Assembly (NCBI RefSeq): GCF_000317895.1
Contig: NC_019567.1
Location: 558,001 to 622,000 of the forward strand
From: Bdellovibrio bacteriovorus str. Tiberius
Lineage (GTDB): Bacteria > Bdellovibrionota > Bdellovibrionia > Bdellovibrionales > Bdellovibrionaceae
DNA length: 64,000 nt
Reading direction: 5' to 3'
In this document: in pieces, positions 27,826 to 62,405 of the stretch
Layout of the letters: each line of letters starts with the position of its first letter
How positions within the stretch are numbered: position 1 is the stretch's first letter
Position numbers and translations under genes: made by a program
Notes under the pieces: model-generated
The model's input: only the letters and a program-made list of their open reading frames with translations
What the model was told of the DNA's origin: nothing
The model's database searches: none

Positions 27826-28734
27826 ATGAAACGTTCTTTGCTCCAATCACTGCTTGTTTCCTCCCTGATTATGGGGATGGCGCCGGTTTATGCGTTGGCT
27901 GAAGTAACGGGGGCCGACCAGCGCCTGCAAAGCCTTTACACCTCAACAGCGCAATTGAAGCAGGGGCAGGGCAAAGACCGTGTGTCGATGTTTGCTTTGC
28001 AGTTTCTTTCTGAAAAAAGCCCGTACATTGTGGATCCGCTGGGTGAAGGCCCTCAAGGTGACATCAGTCATGGACCGCTTTATCGCTTTGATGGCTTCGA
28101 CTGCACAACGTTTGTAGAAACAGTGCTGGCGTTGTCGCTCTCATCAAGTCCTGAGCAGTTCCGCACGCGCATGAATCAGATTCGCTACAAAAATGCTGTG
28201 GTGTCGTACAAGACACGCAATCATTTTCCAAGCATCGACTGGATTCCTAATAATATTGAGAATGGTTTTGTAAAGGACATTACGGGTTCTATTGGCGGGT
28301 CTAAAACCAAGTGGTCGCAGACGTGGATTGAAAAAGACGCGTGGTTTGCGAAGAAGGGACCAGAGTACGTGCAGATGAGCCGCGAATTCAAACCAACGTT
28401 GGGCCAACTTCCCTACGTCGCCAAAGCAGATCTATTGAGTAGTCCCGAAATGCTTGCGAAAATTCCATCGGGCACGATCTTTCACGTGGTGCGCCCAAAC
28501 TGGGATTTGCGCGAAGGTGCAGGATCTCGGCTAGATGTTTCTCATATGGGATTTTTAATTCGTGAAAATGGTGTGTTGTACATGGTTCACGCCAGTAACG
28601 GTATTACTCGTGACGGTAGTAACGACGAGAAGCAGGTAAAAAAAGAGCCGTTGGTTGCTTATGTGGAGCGCGTGATGATGGCTTCGCCGACCACCGCTGG
28701 AATCAACATCCTGGCCGTTCGTAAAACACCGTAA
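27826..28734 (+). CDS. DUF1460 family exported amidase-like protein
   Basis: 302 residues from the ATG at 27826, chosen for the GAGGTGA ribosome site and for the signal peptide that follows (SLLQSLLVSSLIMGMAPVYALA). DUF1460 proteins belong to the NlpC/P60 papain-like superfamily. The nucleophile Cys is in FDCTTFVETVLALS and the His in DVSHMGFLI. A known DUF1460 structure indicates N-acetylmuramoyl-L-alanine amidase-type activity on muropeptides, so a role in cell-wall turnover or prey-wall digestion is plausible but inferred. It is monocistronic. Confidence 0.8.
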   Translation: MKRSLLQSLLVSSLIMGMAPVYALAEVTGADQRLQSLYTSTAQLKQGQGKDRVSMFALQFLSEKSPYIVDPLGEGPQGDISHGPLYRFDGFDCTTFVETVLALSLSSSPEQFRTRMNQIRYKNAVVSYKTRNHFPSIDWIPNNIENGFVKDITGSIGGSKTKWSQTWIEKDAWFAKKGPEYVQMSREFKPTLGQLPYVAKADLLSSPEMLAKIPSGTIFHVVRPNWDLREGAGSRLDVSHMGFLIRENGVLYMVHASNGITRDGSNDEKQVKKEPLVAYVERVMMASPTTAGINILAVRKTP

Positions 28735-28779
28735 GGTTTTTTGCGTGTAACATAAGTCTTCGATAAAACATCGTTTTTT

Positions 28780-28911
28780 AGCCCTTGGTCGAGCCTTGCC
28801 TGGACCTTGGTCAAAAATTTTTGAGTCCTTAATATCCAGTAAAATCAAGCACTAGCAAATCCGCCAAAAAAAATCCTAGACCTTGGGCTAAAGTTTTCTG
28901 GACCTAGGTCC
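28780..28911. promoter_or_regulatory. Palindromic operator-like boxes upstream of first flagellin
   Basis: Four 12-bp boxes: AGCCCTTGGTCG (28780), GGACCTTGGTCA (28802), AGACCTTGGGCT (28878) and the perfect palindrome GGACCTAGGTCC (28900). Within each pair the boxes are exactly 22 bp apart, about two helical turns, so a dimeric regulator could bind both on one face. The last box fills the spacer of the candidate FliA promoter. The rest of the gap to the flagellin gene (28912-29202) is described with the promoter and leader hairpin. Confidence 0.6.
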
Positions 28912-28916
28912 GAAGA
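28889..28916 (+). promoter_or_regulatory. Candidate FliA-type promoter of first flagellin
   Basis: TAAAGTTT (28889-28896) is a perfect sigma-28 -35 element. TCCGAAGA follows after 12 nt (consensus GCCGATAA after 11). It would give a leader of about 280 nt. The match is weaker than that of the second flagellin. Confidence 0.4.
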
Positions 28917-28991
28917 GTTTGTTGTACACGTTGGGCAAGCTAAAAAGGATCTCCAGATCAAATCAGGATACCTCCTCTCGAAGCTCAAGCT

Positions 28992-29028
28992 CCTCTCAAG
29001 AAACGTCCAATCACCGTTTCTTCAGAGG
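28992..29028 (+). other. Stable hairpin in the flagellin 5' leader
   Basis: CCTCT plus AAGAAACG (28992-29005) pair with CGTTTCTT plus AGAGG (29015-29028), 13 bp with one mismatch and a 9-nt loop. It lies 175 nt before the flagellin ATG. No T-run follows directly, so it is more likely an mRNA leader structure than a terminator. Confidence 0.5.
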
Positions 29029-29202
29029 GGCGGCTCCAACCTTAAATAAATTTTTTAAAAGTTAAGAGTTACTAAAAACAAAATCAGATCACGGGACGTA
29101 GGCGGATTTCGGGTGTTCAAAAGGTAAGTGGTGCTACCTTAGTTCATTTTAGATTCCATCAAAAACCAGCGGCTCCGGATCTCTAATCCCAAGGGGGGTT
29201 CT

Positions 29203-30027
29203 ATGGGCTTAAGAATCGCAACAAACACCGCATCTATCGCAGCACAACGTGTGCTATCCAAACAACAGAAACGCGCAGAGCATGCCGCTCAGGCACTGGC
29301 TTCTGGTAGCCGTATCGTAAATGCGGCCGACGACGCCGCAGGCTTGGCGATTTCTGAGAACTTCAAAGGACAATTGAAAGGTATCGGTCAGGCGCGAAAC
29401 AACGCCAACAATGCCATCTCATTTGTTCAGGTCAGTGAGGGGGGCTTGAATGAGGTCTCCAACATTCTGGTGCGTCTGCGAGAGCTGGGCGTACAGGCCG
29501 CTTCCGATACTGTGAGTGACACAGAGAGGGAGTTCCTAAATAAAGAAACCCAACAACTTATCCAAGAGGCGGATCGTATTGCCAAGACCACGGTCTTCGG
29601 TACGAAGAAAATGCTGGATGGTACTGCCGGAGCCATGGAGTTCCAGGTGGGTGCTTACTCGGATGAGAACAACGTTATTAAATTTGAATTTGATGCCGAC
29701 TCGACGGCCTCGGCTCTGGGAATCGATTCGATTGCCATGGCGGAAAGAGGGGATGCGCGAGCGTCTCTGGAGCAGGTCGATCAGGCGATTGAAAAAGTCT
29801 CGGGTATGCGAGCGAACTTCGGTGCGATGCAATCGCGAATGGAGTCCGCGGTGAGTAACCTTGACGTGTCCTATGAGAACTTGTCAGCGGCGAATTCTCG
29901 AATCCGCGACACCGACGTGGCGAAAGAAACGGCCGAAATGACATCTGCAAGTATTCTGCAAAATACAGCGGTGTCGGTTCTGGCTCAAGCCAACCAGTTG
30001 CCTCAAGTTGCAATGAAGTTGGTCTAA
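29203..30027 (+). CDS. fliC: Flagellin
   Basis: 274 residues, short flagellin with conserved D0/D1 ends and little central domain. The N-terminus has [36 protein letters not shown] and LNEVSNILVRLRELGVQAA. The C-terminus has [20 protein letters not shown] and ends in the exported helix QANQLPQVAMKLV. There is no N-terminal signal, as expected for type III export. AAGGGGGG precedes the ATG. It is one of two tandem flagellins here, more divergent from the consensus than the second, which suggests specialisation in the sheathed Bdellovibrio filament. Expected to be made in the attack phase. Confidence 0.95.
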   Translation: MGLRIATNTASIAAQRVLSKQQKRAEHAAQALASGSRIVNAADDAAGLAISENFKGQLKGIGQARNNANNAISFVQVSEGGLNEVSNILVRLRELGVQAASDTVSDTEREFLNKETQQLIQEADRIAKTTVFGTKKMLDGTAGAMEFQVGAYSDENNVIKFEFDADSTASALGIDSIAMAERGDARASLEQVDQAIEKVSGMRANFGAMQSRMESAVSNLDVSYENLSAANSRIRDTDVAKETAEMTSASILQNTAVSVLAQANQLPQVAMKLV

Positions 30028-30079
30028 TTATATCAGCGTAAAATATTTAAGATTCACATTCGCGATTACGGAATGTCGG

Positions 30080-30108
30080 GAGAAGCCTGTTCTGGGATAA
30101 GGCTTCTC
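30080..30108 (+). other. Hairpin in flagellin 3' UTR
   Basis: GAGAAGCCT (30080-30088) pairs with AGGCTTCTC (30100-30108), 9 bp. It sits between the flagellin stop and the main terminator and may protect the 3' end of the abundant mRNA. Confidence 0.5.
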
Positions 30109-30152
30109 TCGGGAAGAGGGGTCGCCCACATATACTCCTCGTCTTAAGCCCA

Positions 30153-30180
30153 CCCCGGGGACACCCGTCCCCGGGGATTT
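30153..30180 (+). terminator. Strong terminator after first flagellin
   Basis: CCCCGGGGAC (30153-30162) pairs perfectly with GTCCCCGGGG (30167-30176), followed by ATTTT. The RAYT element begins 8 bp after its stem, consistent with insertion behind a terminator. Confidence 0.85.
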
Positions 30181-30183
30181 TCG

Positions 30184-30816
30184 AAAAGGTGCCTGGTTGT
30201 TTTTTCTGGCTACAACGCACAATTTTCGAGGGGAGAAAGACGACTGTCTAATTTGGGTAAGGCAAACACTCCCTTGCGAAGTGCTCTTCTTACCAAGTCC
30301 CAACTTTCCTCATTAGGTTTGGCGTTCAGCCACCGTAATGTCTGCACCCGGCTGTCCCAGGTGCTCCAACGAGGGTCTTCCAGTACGGGAACCTCTACCA
30401 TCTTTCTTCCCAACAATGCTTGTATCGTTGAATACGGATAGTCCTGAACTCTTTCGCAGAGCCCTGCTTCCACCGGATTTCTATATACATATTTATAGGC
30501 GTGATCGTAATGCCGTGGATGAGCGATCAAACTACGGTGAAAGCGACCGCCATAAGTCTGATTTATTCTTCCGCTGATTTCCCGCAGATCATCACCCGTT
30601 GCGCGCATGAAGTACTGCATGGCTTCACTTAAGTTTGCCTGTGGTGATCGGACTATCATGTGAAAGTGATTGCTCATCAATACGAAGTTATGAATGCGCA
30701 GATCAGAGAGTGAAGAGCAAGATCTTCGCCCTGTTTGCGCTTCTTCTTATTAGTTCTTAGGTCCGGCAGTCGAATTTTACTGCTTTGTAGCCAGAAAAAA
30801 CAACCAGGCACCTTTT
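30184..30816 (-). mobile_element. RAYT element with 30-bp perfect inverted ends
   Basis: The ends at 30184-30213 and 30787-30816 are perfect 30-bp inverted copies (AAAAGGTGCCTGGTTG...CTGGCTAC), and similarity continues a few bases inward. Read inward-out, the ends start with GTAG, the tetranucleotide typical of REP sequences used by REP-associated tyrosine transposases. The 633-bp element carries one such transposase. No target-site duplication is visible, as expected for HUH enzymes. It separates the two flagellin genes. Confidence 0.8.
30210..30680 (-). pseudogene. REP-associated tyrosine transposase (RAYT), N-terminally truncated
   Basis: 156 residues of an IS200/Y1-type HUH transposase. 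The metal-binding HUH is SNHFHMIV, right at the start of the open frame. The C-terminal part has YKYVYRNPVEAGLCERVQDYPYST, with a Tyr near the expected catalytic helix. In-frame codons continue upstream (SDLRIHNFVLM matches the family) but hit a stop at 30747-30749. The usual first 35-40 residues are missing and no good start codon is present. It is probably a decayed copy. The stop codon lies inside the left terminal repeat. Confidence 0.75.
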
Positions 30817-30845
30817 CTTAGTCGGGGTAGACGTTGGGTGGGACT

Positions 30846-30943
30846 GGACCTTGGTATTGAAAAGTGCAGGGTTTTGGTCTGTTTTTCAGGATCTTAGTCC
30901 AGCTTTTACTGGATCATGGTCCAGAAGTGCTGGACGCGACTAA
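30846..30943. promoter_or_regulatory. Tandem operator-like boxes upstream of second flagellin
   Basis: Boxes: GGACCTTGGTAT (30846), GGGTTTTGGTCT (30869), GGATCTTAGTCC (30889) and GGATCATGGTCC (30911), plus a half-box GGAC at 30932. Spacings are 23, 20, 22 and 21 bp. The array ends where the FliA-type promoter begins, as expected for activator sites stacked upstream of a promoter. The remaining gap 30968-31138 is leader with no gene. Confidence 0.6.
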
Positions 30944-30967
30944 AGCCTTTCAAGACCTCGCCGAAAG
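30941..30967 (+). promoter_or_regulatory. FliA-type promoter of second flagellin
   Basis: TAAAGCCT (30941-30948), exactly 11 nt, then GCCGAAAG (30960-30967), against the sigma-28 consensus TAAAGTTT-N11-GCCGATAA. It would give a leader of about 165 nt before the flagellin ATG. Confidence 0.65.
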
Positions 30968-31138
30968 GTACGTCAGAAGCAACGACGCAAACCAAGTCGA
31001 AGCTCTCGAGGAACCCGCAAGGAGTGATTGCCTTACGAAGATTCGCTTGAGAGAGCCAGACAAAAGTTTGGGTCAACAACGTGTACAAACTGGCTAGCCT
31101 AAGTAGGTATAAGGCGGCCGATTTAATGGAGGTCCCAA

Positions 31139-31972
31139 ATGGGAATGAGAATTTCTACGAACGTATCCGCAATCAACGCACAGAGAACAATGGTTAACTC
31201 TCAGCGTGAAATCGGTAAATCAATGTCACAACTTGCATCCGGCTCCCGCATCAATAAAGCGGCGGACGACGCAGCAGGTTTGGCGATCAGTGAAAACTTG
31301 AAATCGCAAATTCGCTCTCTGGGCCAGGCTTCCCGAAATGCGAACGATGGTATCTCCATGGTTCAAACTGCAGAGGGTGGTTTGTCAGAGATCTCCAACA
31401 TCCTGACTCGTATGAGAGAACTGGGTGTACAAGCCTCTTCTGACACTATCGGTGATACAGAGCGCGGCTTCCTTGATAAAGAGGTTCAGCAACTTAAATC
31501 TGAGGCACAACGTATCACTCAGACTACCAGATTCGGTACAACAAAACTTCTGGATGGTTCCGGCGACAAGTTCGACTTCCAGGTAGGTATCAACAATGAC
31601 CCTGAAGCAGATAGAATCTCCTTCAACGCCGGTGAAACAAATGCATCCACGTCCTCTTTGGGAATTGACAGCTTTGACTTCTCTTCCAAAGAAGGTGCAC
31701 AAGAGGCACTGGCAGCAGTGGACTCTGCACAATCTCAAGTGAATGGTTACCGCGCAAATCTGGGTGCCCTTCAGAACAGATTGCAGTCCACAGTTGATAA
31801 CTTGGGTGTGCAACATGAGAACATCTCCGCAGCTAACTCTCGTATCCGCGATACAGACGTAGCAGCAGCAACTGCAGAGACGACTCGTAACCAGGTACTT
31901 TTGCAGGCGAATACATCTGTGTTGTCTCAAGCCAACGCAATGCCAAACTCTGCACTAAGACTGATTGGTTAA
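31139..31972 (+). CDS. fliC: Flagellin
   Basis: 277 residues with canonical short-flagellin ends: [59 protein letters not shown], then [20 protein letters not shown] and a terminal [13 protein letters not shown]. It is clearly paralogous to the flagellin 1.1 kb upstream but closer to the general consensus. GGAGG at 31128-31132 supports the ATG. It is preceded by a FliA-type promoter and four palindromic boxes and followed by a stable hairpin. A structural subunit of the filament exported by the flagellar type III system. Confidence 0.96.
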
Positions 31973-32038
31973 TATTAGAATTTTTTTATAAGGATTTGAC
32001 CTGAGAGGATACCTCCGTTTCCTCTCGGTACCAACCTA

Positions 32039-32064
32039 CCCAGGAAGACATGGGTCTTCCTGGG
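32039..32064 (+). terminator. Hairpin terminator after second flagellin
   Basis: CCCAGGAAGAC (32039-32049) pairs perfectly with GTCTTCCTGGG (32054-32064) around ATGG. A weaker GAGAGGA/TCCTCTC pair lies just upstream (about 32003-32026). There is no strong U-run. The remainder of the gap to 32302 has two short inverted repeats (ACCCA/TGGGT and GTC/GAC) and no gene. Confidence 0.6.
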
Positions 32065-32302
32065 GTACTTAAGGGGTTGGGATTCCTCGCAACATAATTA
32101 GGATCATACGGTTGCCTCGGTTCACGGGGTTTTTTGCGTTTGGTTTGATTATCCCTGTCAGTGGAGCAGTTCTTGCTTTGCTGTAATTCCTGAAAGTTTA
32201 AGCCTGTTAAGTTGGATATGGTGTCCGGCTTAGACCCAATTTTGGGTTCGCTGTCTCGTTTTTAGACGGCGGCAAGGGGTTTAAATCGATTTGGGAGTAC
32301 GT

Positions 32303-45244: not shown

Positions 45245-47201
45245 ACTTCCCCACTTTTTCCCGTTTCAAAAGCGGGAAGTGGAGATCATTTTCAGGGCCT
45301 CTATTGCTGAGGCCCTTTTGCTTTTGCAGAGTCAGCGTTTTTCCTCGATCTTAGTCCAGGAAGTCGGCAACTCTGATGCGTTGGAATTTTTGTACCAAGC
45401 CCGCCTGTTGCAGCCGATGGCTCCGCGTATTTTGATCGCAGAAGAACTTAACGAACAAGAGGTCCGCGAGGGCATCAACAAAGCCCAGGTGTACCGCTTC
45501 ATGCGCTGGCCTTTGACGGAGCATGAGATCTGGGAACAGCTCGAAAACGCTTTGCAAAAGCACGCGATGTTTTTATCTCGCTCTTTGCTGCTGAAAGAAT
45601 CTTCCCACCAGAACAAACAGCTGGAAGCCCTGACCCATTCCCTGGAGGGCATGGTTGAAGAGCGCACCCAGTACATTGAAATGTCCCACCATGAGGAAAG
45701 CGAAAAGTTGACCCGGGAACGCCAGTTGATTCGTTTCATCAAGGATCTTGCGACGCAGACGTCATTTGAAGACATCCTGGCGATCCTGCGCAAGGAACTT
45801 CGCAAGTTCCACAAGATGGGAGATCCGATCTTGGCCTTCCGCTTGGGTGGATCAAAAACCTTCTTCTTAAGTTTTCAGTCCGGGCATTTCACTCAGACCG
45901 AATCCACCAGCTATTTTGAATTTCCCAAGACAGCGCAAGTGCCCAGTGCGGAGCTGATTCGCTCGTTTGCCAATCACTTTGGCCGTCCGTTTGTTAAAGC
46001 GTATGTTGTGCCTTTTGAACTGCGTATGACCAGTCACCTGACCAGCGGTGAAGGCGAAGCGATTCTGTGTATTGAGAACTCGCTGAACGACAAAGAGATG
46101 GGGCCGTTCATGGATTTCATGAACGACCGGGTTCGTCCGTTAAGTATGGCTTTGGACCGTGTTCTGCTGGAAAACCAGCTTTCCAGTTTTTCGTATCGTT
46201 GGGAAAAGACCTTCGATGGTATGCGCGACCCTATTGCGATTGTGGACATCGACTACAACGTGGTTCGCGCCAATCGCAAATTCAGTGACCGCTTCATGCA
46301 CCACAAGTGTTATGAAAGCTTTGCTCATCGCAAAGCCACGTGTGAAGGGTGTCCGGTGCCGCAGGCTTTGAAGGAAGGCGCACCGGCCGCGGGCCAGATT
46401 CAGGTGGATGGGCGCATCTATCAGGTGCACAGCTATCCGGTGCTTTTGGATCAGGGCAGTCGTCCAACAAACGTTGTGAACCAGTATGTGGATATCACCC
46501 AGTCCCGCGAACTTTACCTGCGCATGCTGCAAAGTGAAAAAATGGGAGCCATTGGTTTGCTGGCCGGAAACATCGCCCATGAACTGAATAATCCATTGAC
46601 CGGTCTTCGCTCGTTGTCGCAGGTGCTGCTGCAGGAAGCCGAAGAGGGCAGCAATCTGCATTCAGATCTGGTCGAGATTGAAAAGGCCACAGCACGGTCT
46701 CAGCGCATTATTAAAAACCTGCTCGATTTTTCGAAAGGGGAAGACCAGCCTTCGGAATTCATCAGCGTGGATGAGGTCGTTGAGCGCACTTTGCCGATGT
46801 TGAAGTCGGCGTTGCGCACCCACCGCCTGGAGGTGGATTTACAAACTTTGGGCTCCACGGTTTATGTGGAGCCGCATTTGTTGCAGCAGGTGGTCTTTAA
46901 TCTGATAAACAATGCCTGTCAGGCCATGAAAGATCCGGGCCGCTTGAGCCTGCGCACTAGTTTGGTCAATGGATCTGTGGTGCTGGAGATTGAAGACACC
47001 GGGCCGGGCATTCCGGAAGACATCCGTCGACGCATCTTTGAACCCTTCTTTACGACAAAAAAAGAGGGACTTGGTACCGGTCTTGGGTTAAGTATGTCTA
47101 AGTCAGTCATTGAAAAATTCGGAGGCACCATCGAATTCCGAGACGTGGATCCCCACGGGACTTGTTTCACGATCGTGCTTCCGCAAAGGAATGCGCCTTG
47201 A
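45165..47201 (+). CDS. Cytoplasmic sensor histidine kinase with PAS domain
   Basis: 678 residues and no transmembrane helix. The N-terminal 120 residues look like a degenerate receiver (ILWVGNVSP, SSILVQEVGNS, MAPRILIAEE). A coiled coil near 145-185 and a GAF-like region follow, then PAS (FDGMRDPIAIVDIDYNVVRANRKF) with a CESFAHRKATCEGCP Cys cluster. HisKA has GNIAHELNNPLTGLRSLS, with HATPase NLINNACQAM, EDTGPGIP and GTGLGLSMSK. The NtrB-like H-box and the adjacent receiver gene form a pair. It overlaps its upstream neighbour by 80 bp; GGAG supports the ATG at 45165. Confidence 0.88.
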   Translation: MANTQEISSIPNKLDPILWVGNVSPIRLPHFFPFQKREVEIIFRASIAEALLLLQSQRFSSILVQEVGNSDALEFLYQARLLQPMAPRILIAEELNEQEVREGINKAQVYRFMRWPLTEHEIWEQLENALQKHAMFLSRSLLLKESSHQNKQLEALTHSLEGMVEERTQYIEMSHHEESEKLTRERQLIRFIKDLATQTSFEDILAILRKELRKFHKMGDPILAFRLGGSKTFFLSFQSGHFTQTESTSYFEFPKTAQVPSAELIRSFANHFGRPFVKAYVVPFELRMTSHLTSGEGEAILCIENSLNDKEMGPFMDFMNDRVRPLSMALDRVLLENQLSSFSYRWEKTFDGMRDPIAIVDIDYNVVRANRKFSDRFMHHKCYESFAHRKATCEGCPVPQALKEGAPAAGQIQVDGRIYQVHSYPVLLDQGSRPTNVVNQYVDITQSRELYLRMLQSEKMGAIGLLAGNIAHELNNPLTGLRSLSQVLLQEAEEGSNLHSDLVEIEKATARSQRIIKNLLDFSKGEDQPSEFISVDEVVERTLPMLKSALRTHRLEVDLQTLGSTVYVEPHLLQQVVFNLINNACQAMKDPGRLSLRTSLVNGSVVLEIEDTGPGIPEDIRRRIFEPFFTTKKEGLGTGLGLSMSKSVIEKFGGTIEFRDVDPHGTCFTIVLPQRNAP

Positions 47202-51163: not shown

Positions 51164-51172
51164 AGCGAGTTA

Positions 51173-61595: not shown

Positions 61596-62405
61596 ATGAG
61601 TTTATCACCGGCTTTCGCAACTGCGGGGTCCAAGCTGCAAGATACATTGAGACCTAGGTCTCATGGGGAAAGACTAAGGTCTTTAATATACGTTCTATTT
61701 CTTACCTTGGTCGTCCTTCTTTCCGCGATCGAGTCCCGCGCTCAGAACGAAGGTCCTGAATCAACCACTCTGGTGGATGAAAATTATTCTTTGAAAGCCG
61801 ACCGCGAGGCGTTTGAAGAACTACGTAAAAACATCCCGGCCAACGTAAAAAAGGACAATGATGAAAAGGCCTTCATGGATGGTCTGGTTTCAGACTTGTC
61901 CCGCACACCTTCCGAGGTTCGTGGCAAGTTCAGTTCTATCGTGAACAAGAAGCGTGATTTGTTTAATAAAGACATGACCAAGGCGCGCGAACAGTTCGGC
62001 AAGATCCAGAAAAAAGAGCGCGACGAATTCACCAAAGATCTGGCGGACAAACGCAAGGCCTTCGCCAAAACGAAATCGACCTCTGACGAACGCAAAGAGT
62101 TCTATGACGAACACGAATCCAAGCGCAAAGACTTCTACGAAAATCAGAAGGAAAAACGTGACCAGTTCGAGGCCGACATGCGCGACAAACGCAAAAACTT
62201 CGATGACTACATCCGTTCAAAGACGGACGAATTCAATCAGCTTCACCGCGATTACACCAAGCGCTTTGATGAAAACAAAAAAGCCGTGGCTGATCAGAAG
62301 AAACAAGCCGAGCTAAAAAAGAAACAGCAGCAGCAGGATCTGGATAAAGAATACGAAGCCATCCGCAAACAAGATCCAACGATCCTCGGACCTACCGGCG
62401 AATAA
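61596..62405 (+). CDS. Membrane-anchored coiled-coil protein, unknown
   Basis: 269 residues from the ATG at 61596 with CGGAGG upstream. A basic N-terminus of about 30 residues precedes one hydrophobic segment (LIYVLFLTLVVLLSAIESRA), an inner-membrane anchor or late signal peptide. The rest (about 60-260) is an extremely charged Lys/Glu/Asp helix with repeated KRKDF, KRDQF, KRKNF and KRKAF units about ten residues apart, ending in a Gln-rich tail. It is probably a long periplasmic coiled coil or single alpha-helix spacer. Two palindromic boxes of the flagellin type lie inside its N-terminal codons. A REP-like copy overlaps the stop. Confidence 0.6.
   Translation: MSLSPAFATAGSKLQDTLRPRSHGERLRSLIYVLFLTLVVLLSAIESRAQNEGPESTTLVDENYSLKADREAFEELRKNIPANVKKDNDEKAFMDGLVSDLSRTPSEVRGKFSSIVNKKRDLFNKDMTKAREQFGKIQKKERDEFTKDLADKRKAFAKTKSTSDERKEFYDEHESKRKDFYENQKEKRDQFEADMRDKRKNFDDYIRSKTDEFNQLHRDYTKRFDENKKAVADQKKQAELKKKQQQQDLDKEYEAIRKQDPTILGPTGE
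61650..61682. promoter_or_regulatory. Palindromic boxes within a coding start region
   Basis: AGACCTAGGTCT (61650-61661), the core of a 14-bp perfect palindrome at 61649-61662, and AGACTAAGGTCT (61671-61682) are 21 bp apart. They match the box family of the flagellin and vWA loci. A weaker TTACCTTGGTCG follows at 61702. They lie about 50-120 bp inside the coiled-coil gene, so either the start is further downstream or the site works from within the gene. Confidence 0.5.

Follow-up and report, generated by a model that had tools for sequence, protein, structure and literature searches.

It is an unsolved question how a bacterium that makes several flagellins arranges them in a constant order within a single filament. 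Bdellovibrio has six flagellins, and the filament positions of most of them are known. The 64,000-nucleotide stretch of the Bdellovibrio bacteriovorus str. Tiberius genome analyzed here (the window) contains two flagellin open reading frames that agree in size and order with FliC1 and FliC2 (Bd0604 and Bd0606) (PMC2791853). Attack-phase cells express both genes, and FliC2 is a minor protein positioned directly after FliC1 in the filament (PMC2791853). Published RT-PCR used 25 cycles for fliC1 and fliC2 and 30 cycles for fliC3 to fliC6 (PMC2791853), which suggests that fliC2 mRNA is abundant, cycle number being a weak measure of abundance. Our analysis indicates that fliC1 and fliC2 are probably tied at both the DNA and the RNA level. 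The main reading, to which we assign a probability of roughly 0.6, treats the region as a control module with two layers, with promoters built from palindromic boxes and FliA motifs at the DNA level and pairing of the two leaders in trans at the RNA level (Table 1).

The two genes are separated by a transposon-like insert (30185-30817) whose inverted ends are GGTGCCTGGTTGTTTTTTCTGGCTACA and its complement. Its open reading frame (30210-30680, minus strand) contains an NHFHMIV motif and resembles REP-associated transposases; no Pfam match to this frame was found. In HD100, another element occupies the same site between fliC1 and fliC2.

Table 1. Features of the fliC1-fliC2 region, in window coordinates
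Feature	Position	Strand	Sequence	Remarks
fliC1 distal box pair	28778..28793 and 28800..28815	+		
fliC1 box on -35	28876..28891	+	CTAGACCTTGGGCTAA	
fliC1 FliA promoter	28889..28915	+	TAAAGTTT-N11-GTCCGAAG	inferred start near 28924
fliC1 box on -10	28898..28913	+	CTGGACCTAGGTCCGA	
X, 5' end of fliC1 leader	28922..28933	+	UUGUACACGUUG	complementary to R
fliC1 leader region, APsRNA3 equivalent	28928..29055	+		maps onto HD100 attack-phase RNA
Anti-Shine-Dalgarno stretch, fliC1 leader	28947..28955	+	GGAUCUCCA	
fliC1 leader hairpin	28998..29022	+	loop CCAAUCAC	loop matches fliC2 loop
fliC1	29203..30027	+		274 aa
Box A	30844..30859	+	CTGGACCTTGGTATTG	consensus count, matrix, orthologues
Box B	30866..30881	+	GCAGGGTTTTGGTCTG	degenerate, right half GGTCTG; weaker in relatives too
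Box C	30887..30902	+	CAGGATCTTAGTCCAG	consensus count, matrix, orthologues
Box D	30909..30924	+	CTGGATCATGGTCCAG	top single site of window
Half-box E	30930..30936	+	CTGGACG	extends into -35; similar sequence before -35 in most orthologues
fliC2 FliA (sigma-28) promoter	30941..30967	+	TAAAGCCT-N11-GCCGAAAG	predicted start near 30975-30976
Half-box F	30952..30957	+	AAGACC	in promoter spacer, in array register; conservation
fliC2 leader hairpin	31019..31034	+	loop AGUGAUUG	loop matches fliC1 loop
R, fliC2 leader stretch	31077..31088	+	CAACGUGUACAA	reverse complement of fliC1 5' end
fliC2 leader hairpin with constant loop	31097..31115	+	loop AAGUAGGU	upstream of ribosome site
fliC2 Shine-Dalgarno region	31127..31135	+		complementary to fliC1 leader
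fliC2	31139..31972	+		277 aa

A conserved box array precedes the fliC2 promoter

The box consensus is a 16-bp palindrome, CTGGACC-WW-GGTCCAG, and four copies of it, followed by a half-box, precede the fliC2 FliA promoter. The sequence-only reading had described such an array from the letters of the window; the array itself was confirmed, with coordinates shifted by about 2 bp and with steps of 21 to 22 bp in place of 20 to 23 bp. With a position matrix that was built from orthologues without this genome, and that is not independent of orthology, the best four-box array in the window scored 58.5, whereas no shuffled window exceeded 6.1. A plain consensus count agreed, with three sites at two or fewer mismatches (0.0 expected) and six at three or fewer (0.8 expected). 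Across relatives, with the first base of the -10 element as reference, the box centers lie at -108, -86 (weaker), -65, and -43, the last two being strongest; Bdellovibrio keeps these positions, and so do most fliC2 promoters in other genera. The fliC2 box array is confirmed as real and deeply conserved, and the earlier proposal that phased sites are stacked ahead of a FliA promoter holds.

The promoter itself follows the FliA pattern (TAAAG -35, 11-nt spacing, and a GCCGA-type -10), and the motif occurs without mismatch before fliC2 in nearly all Bdellovibrio genomes. The sequence GACC at 30954-30957, directly before the -10, is kept in nearly all orthologues, and the box register thus reaches into the promoter. 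No mapped transcription start for fliC2 was found in published data. Two published FliA-driven RNAs, APsRNA6 and APsRNA7, begin 8 to 9 nt past their -10 elements, and the same offset puts the fliC2 boxes near -59, -81, -102, and -124 relative to the predicted start. By this estimate, the positions from -59 to -124 would be those used by upstream activators, and the palindromes, their helical phase, and their location upstream of the -35 correspond to a class I-like activator layout.

The fliC1 promoter carries the same boxes at other positions

At fliC1, two boxes lie over the promoter itself, centered at -24 and -2 relative to the -10 across the family, and in Bdellovibrio a distal pair lies about 98 bp further upstream than these. 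The claim that the sites of the first flagellin overlap its promoter was therefore borne out, and the difference in placement between the two genes is conserved across the family. The contrast drawn between the two promoters survives in part: strong boxes cover the promoter of fliC1 and stand upstream of that of fliC2, but the distinction is not absolute, because fliC2 keeps in-register half-boxes over its own -35 and -10. The two promoters share one plan, with the symmetric boxes moved upstream in fliC2.

Box matches at other loci

Genome-wide, single boxes were no commoner than a reversed-pattern control, and isolated boxes therefore mean little; only arrays count. With the settings used, no box arrays were found before fliC4 or fliC5, and the HD100 loci adjoining fliC5 and fliC6 contained no box. 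Upstream of fliC3 there are two weak box matches, CAGGACCAAGGGCTAG and CAAGCCCTCGGTCCAG (L002, 1203 and 1327). Outside the flagellin region, the window has further box-like matches at 45344, at 51171 and 51199, and at 61648 and 61743. In several Bdellovibrio species, a pair of boxes about 40 bp apart precedes an outer-membrane porin-like gene (L281, L299, and L028; G000:C1:426926), and in one genome (G016) a three-box cluster precedes a subtilisin-like protease gene (L294, 1436-1540). Among the genes neighboring single boxes, no recurrent transcription-factor gene was found. A search of the available literature found no description of these boxes or of the flagellin-leader pairing described below.

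The 5' end of the fliC1 leader covaries with a stretch of the fliC2 leader

A stronger link between the paralogues, absent from the sequence-only reading, is at the RNA level. At site 1, the 5' end of the fliC1 leader (X) can form a duplex of 10 to 12 bp with a stretch of the fliC2 leader (R). Across 41 genomes, X and R change together (GUACACGUUGG/CCAACGUGUAC, GAACAUGUUGG/CCAACAUGUUC, GUUACUUGUUGG/CCAACAAGUAAC, GAUACGUUGG/CCAACGUAUC, and others), with changes on both sides in 7 of 13 base pairs and with G-U wobbles tolerated. In the native register 89% of cells were paired, compared to 25 to 42% in slid registers. The mean pairing energy of native leaders was -20.3 kcal/mol versus -14.5 kcal/mol for species-swapped leaders, 5.8 better and unmatched in 100,000 permutations, in a set for which three fliC2 windows were picked by eye. 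An unbiased test of pairing over whole leaders gave 0 of 20,000 permutations, and 6 of 100,000 when one genome per genus was taken, a set that included genomes without the pairing sites. For each of six pairs, parsimony on the FliC2 tree, in which many branches are weakly supported, required between 2 and 11 changes of pair state. For two held-out fliC2 leaders (G045 and G048), complements were predicted in advance; the match extended along 11 bases in G045, one compensated pair among them, and along 12 in G048. Covariation support fades two columns before 28924, where the fliC1 start is expected from the -10.

The X 13-mer has a single exact occurrence in this genome, at fliC1; the best near-matches to it in the opposite-strand set include the fliC2 leader, where R is predicted to be single stranded. 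The control with other flagellin leaders was run without fliC6. Pairing is missing in some genera. In G029, G037, and G057, site 1 is absent from both leaders; the exception is G038, which keeps X and not R. In G039, fliC1 has 17 kb of downstream contig in which no fliC2 was detected, and the leaders are still complementary. In that genome, the genes being apparently nonadjacent, the leaders would seem to meet in trans.

Two further predicted contacts involve hairpin loops and the fliC2 ribosome site

Site 2 consists of complementary 7-mers in predicted hairpin loops of the two leaders. The loops covary as CAAUCAC/GUGAUUG in the HD100 group and CAGUCAC/GUGACUG in most genomes, with variants CUGUCAC/GUGACAG (G035 and G041), UAGUCAC/GUGACUA (G045), and CCGUCAC/GUGACGG (G042); in G033 the match is longer and shifted. 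The stems are variable while the loop match is kept. Taken alone, the fliC1 loop lies within background pairing energy in this genome.

At site 3, GGACCUCC-like stretches of the fliC1 leader face the fliC2 Shine-Dalgarno region. Native pairs exceeded swapped ones, with 25 of 20,000 permutations reaching the native value, and clear compensations were seen in G008 (GGAUCUCC/GGAGAUCC), G041 (GGAACCUC/GAGGUUCC), and G048 (CAACCUCU/AGAGGUUG). The same test on fliC1's own ribosome site gave no excess, with a window that was badly placed in some genomes. Across genera, covariation is strong at sites 1 and 2 and modest to weak at site 3. Sites 1 and 3 are topologically crossed and may therefore be alternatives.

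The fliC2 leader also contains a hairpin with a constant loop, a possible candidate site for an RNA-binding protein. Similar hairpins, with GUAGGU or GUGGU and different stems, occur in the leaders of fliC1 and fliC5, and other genera have them too. A second fliC1-leader hairpin near position 50, with the loop GCAGUCA, was seen in other genera (L212, L218, L224, and G024) and was not seen in Bdellovibrio proper.

The fliC1 leader corresponds to the attack-phase RNA APsRNA3

The fliC1 leader matches an RNA listed in HD100 as APsRNA3 (561,854-561,981, 128 nt), with the FliA promoter entry "yes" and 191-fold upregulation in attack phase (PMC3627812, Table 2); that 2013 listing gives it without a target. 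APsRNA3 begins 13 nt past the fliC1 -10, versus 8 to 9 nt for the two other FliA RNAs, and its published 5' end lies 4 nt inside the start implied by covariation. The equivalent of APsRNA4 is at 30057-30154 in the window, directly downstream of the fliC1 coding region, and therefore resembles a 3' UTR RNA of fliC1. An Rfam scan of 28500-32300 gave no relevant match.

The leader's complementarity to a target in a separate transcript is conserved and includes compensatory changes, one of the features expected of a trans-acting UTR-derived small RNA.

A proposed model for coupled flagellin expression and its alternatives

The boxes, the promoter motifs, their conservation, and the covarying complementarity were established by computation on the genomes. 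From them we infer an encounter of the two RNAs in vivo, the direction in which it acts, and a regulator with its sign at each promoter. In this model, FliA and a dimeric box-binding regulator would switch on both genes in attack phase. One such dimer could read both registers, probably cooperatively along one helix face, and at fliC2 it would sit on the upstream boxes (about -59 to -124) and help RNA polymerase, while at fliC1 it would lie over the -35 and -10 and hinder or reshape the polymerase. The fliC1 leader RNA, free or within the mRNA and accumulating as APsRNA3 or including it, would meet the fliC2 leader through the loops; its 5' end would then zip onto R, and the ribosome site could be covered. 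Most simply, the fliC1 leader would restrain fliC2 translation in trans, leaving FliC2 a minor protein that is added after FliC1. Such restraint fits the apparently abundant fliC2 mRNA and the minor FliC2 protein (PMC2791853). The full proposal is that three-point leader pairing couples paralogous flagellin mRNAs in trans, that the abundant fliC1 leader keeps fliC2 poorly translated, and that flagellin order and amounts are partly set by RNA on top of a shared box and FliA design. We hold this proposal tentatively, at a little under even odds.

Two alternatives concern the boxes. The earlier suggestion that one regulator tunes the two paralogues oppositely would explain the region by the boxes alone, with activation of fliC2 from upstream sites and repression of fliC1 from promoter-overlapping sites. 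The conserved positional contrast argues for this view, but half-boxes also cover the -35 and -10 of fliC2, and the covarying leaders are left unaddressed; moreover, with both genes active in attack phase (PMC2791853), a simple switch in opposite directions is not obvious. We consider this explanation unlikely. It is somewhat easier to imagine that the boxes are a broader attack-phase operator and not a flagellin device, as the box pairs before the porin-like gene in several species and the cluster before the subtilisin-like protease gene in one would suggest; the lack of excess of single sites over the reversed-pattern control elsewhere in the genome speaks against this idea, which we regard as possible without favoring it.

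The remaining alternatives concern the complementary leaders. Pairing could activate or stabilize, the fliC2 leader shielding the 5' end of fliC1 mRNA from decay or the pairing opening the fliC2 leader. A duplex whose start coincides with the inferred 5' nucleotide of fliC1 RNA, and a predicted single-stranded R, are consistent with such a role, whereas the anti-Shine-Dalgarno match to fliC2 and the small amount of FliC2 protein alongside seemingly abundant mRNA (PMC2791853) point to repression; a positive effect seems doubtful to us. The complementary stretches could also be two copies, in inverted orientation, of a DNA site bound by a single protein or recombinase, covarying as the preference of that protein drifts. 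Their inverted orientation and a few near-palindromic cores would suit a DNA site, but G-U wobbles are tolerated, the second contact lies in hairpin loops with variable stems, the third is a ribosome site, and pairing support ends at the inferred start site, all of which make this explanation very improbable. Hin-like DNA inversion, considered for the X/R inverted repeat, was rejected on account of the wobble pairs, the loop and Shine-Dalgarno contacts, and the apparent nonadjacency of the genes in G039.

Relation to known systems

FliA promoters in Bdellovibrio (PMC3627812), sigma-28-dependent UTR RNAs acting on flagellin mRNA (PMC10578931), and combined Shine-Dalgarno and loop-loop contact (PMC2837412) are already known. 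The attack-phase promoters described by Karunker et al. in 2013 share promoter class and organism with this region, and the fliC1 leader is where their APsRNA3, which has a FliA promoter entry, maps; in the available part of that report, however, the boxes and the leader pairing are not described, and APsRNA3 has no target (PMC3627812). The Escherichia coli RNAs MotR and FliX are likewise sigma-28 dependent, derived from UTRs, and pair with flagellin mRNA. They come, however, from the motA 5' UTR and the fliC 3' UTR, pair within coding sequence, and bind Hfq (PMC10578931), whereas in Bdellovibrio three places of complementarity link the leaders of two flagellin paralogues. In Staphylococcus aureus, RNAIII contacts coa mRNA in a similar bipartite manner, with a Shine-Dalgarno-masking duplex and a loop-loop contact, but it is a dedicated regulator with several targets (PMC2837412); in Bdellovibrio, the partner is the leader of a coregulated paralogue, with the loop contact located 5' of the coding region. 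The Salmonella mgtCBR leader RNA, as summarized in PMC10578931 from Choi 2017, also acts on one of two flagellins but belongs to an unrelated operon and not to a flagellin paralogue.

For Bdellovibrio, a palindromic operator is now defined at attack-phase genes, and the leader pairing suggests a target for APsRNA3. A conserved and covarying RNA contact between two flagellins that are adjacent in filament order opens flagellin ordering to a direct test at single-nucleotide level.
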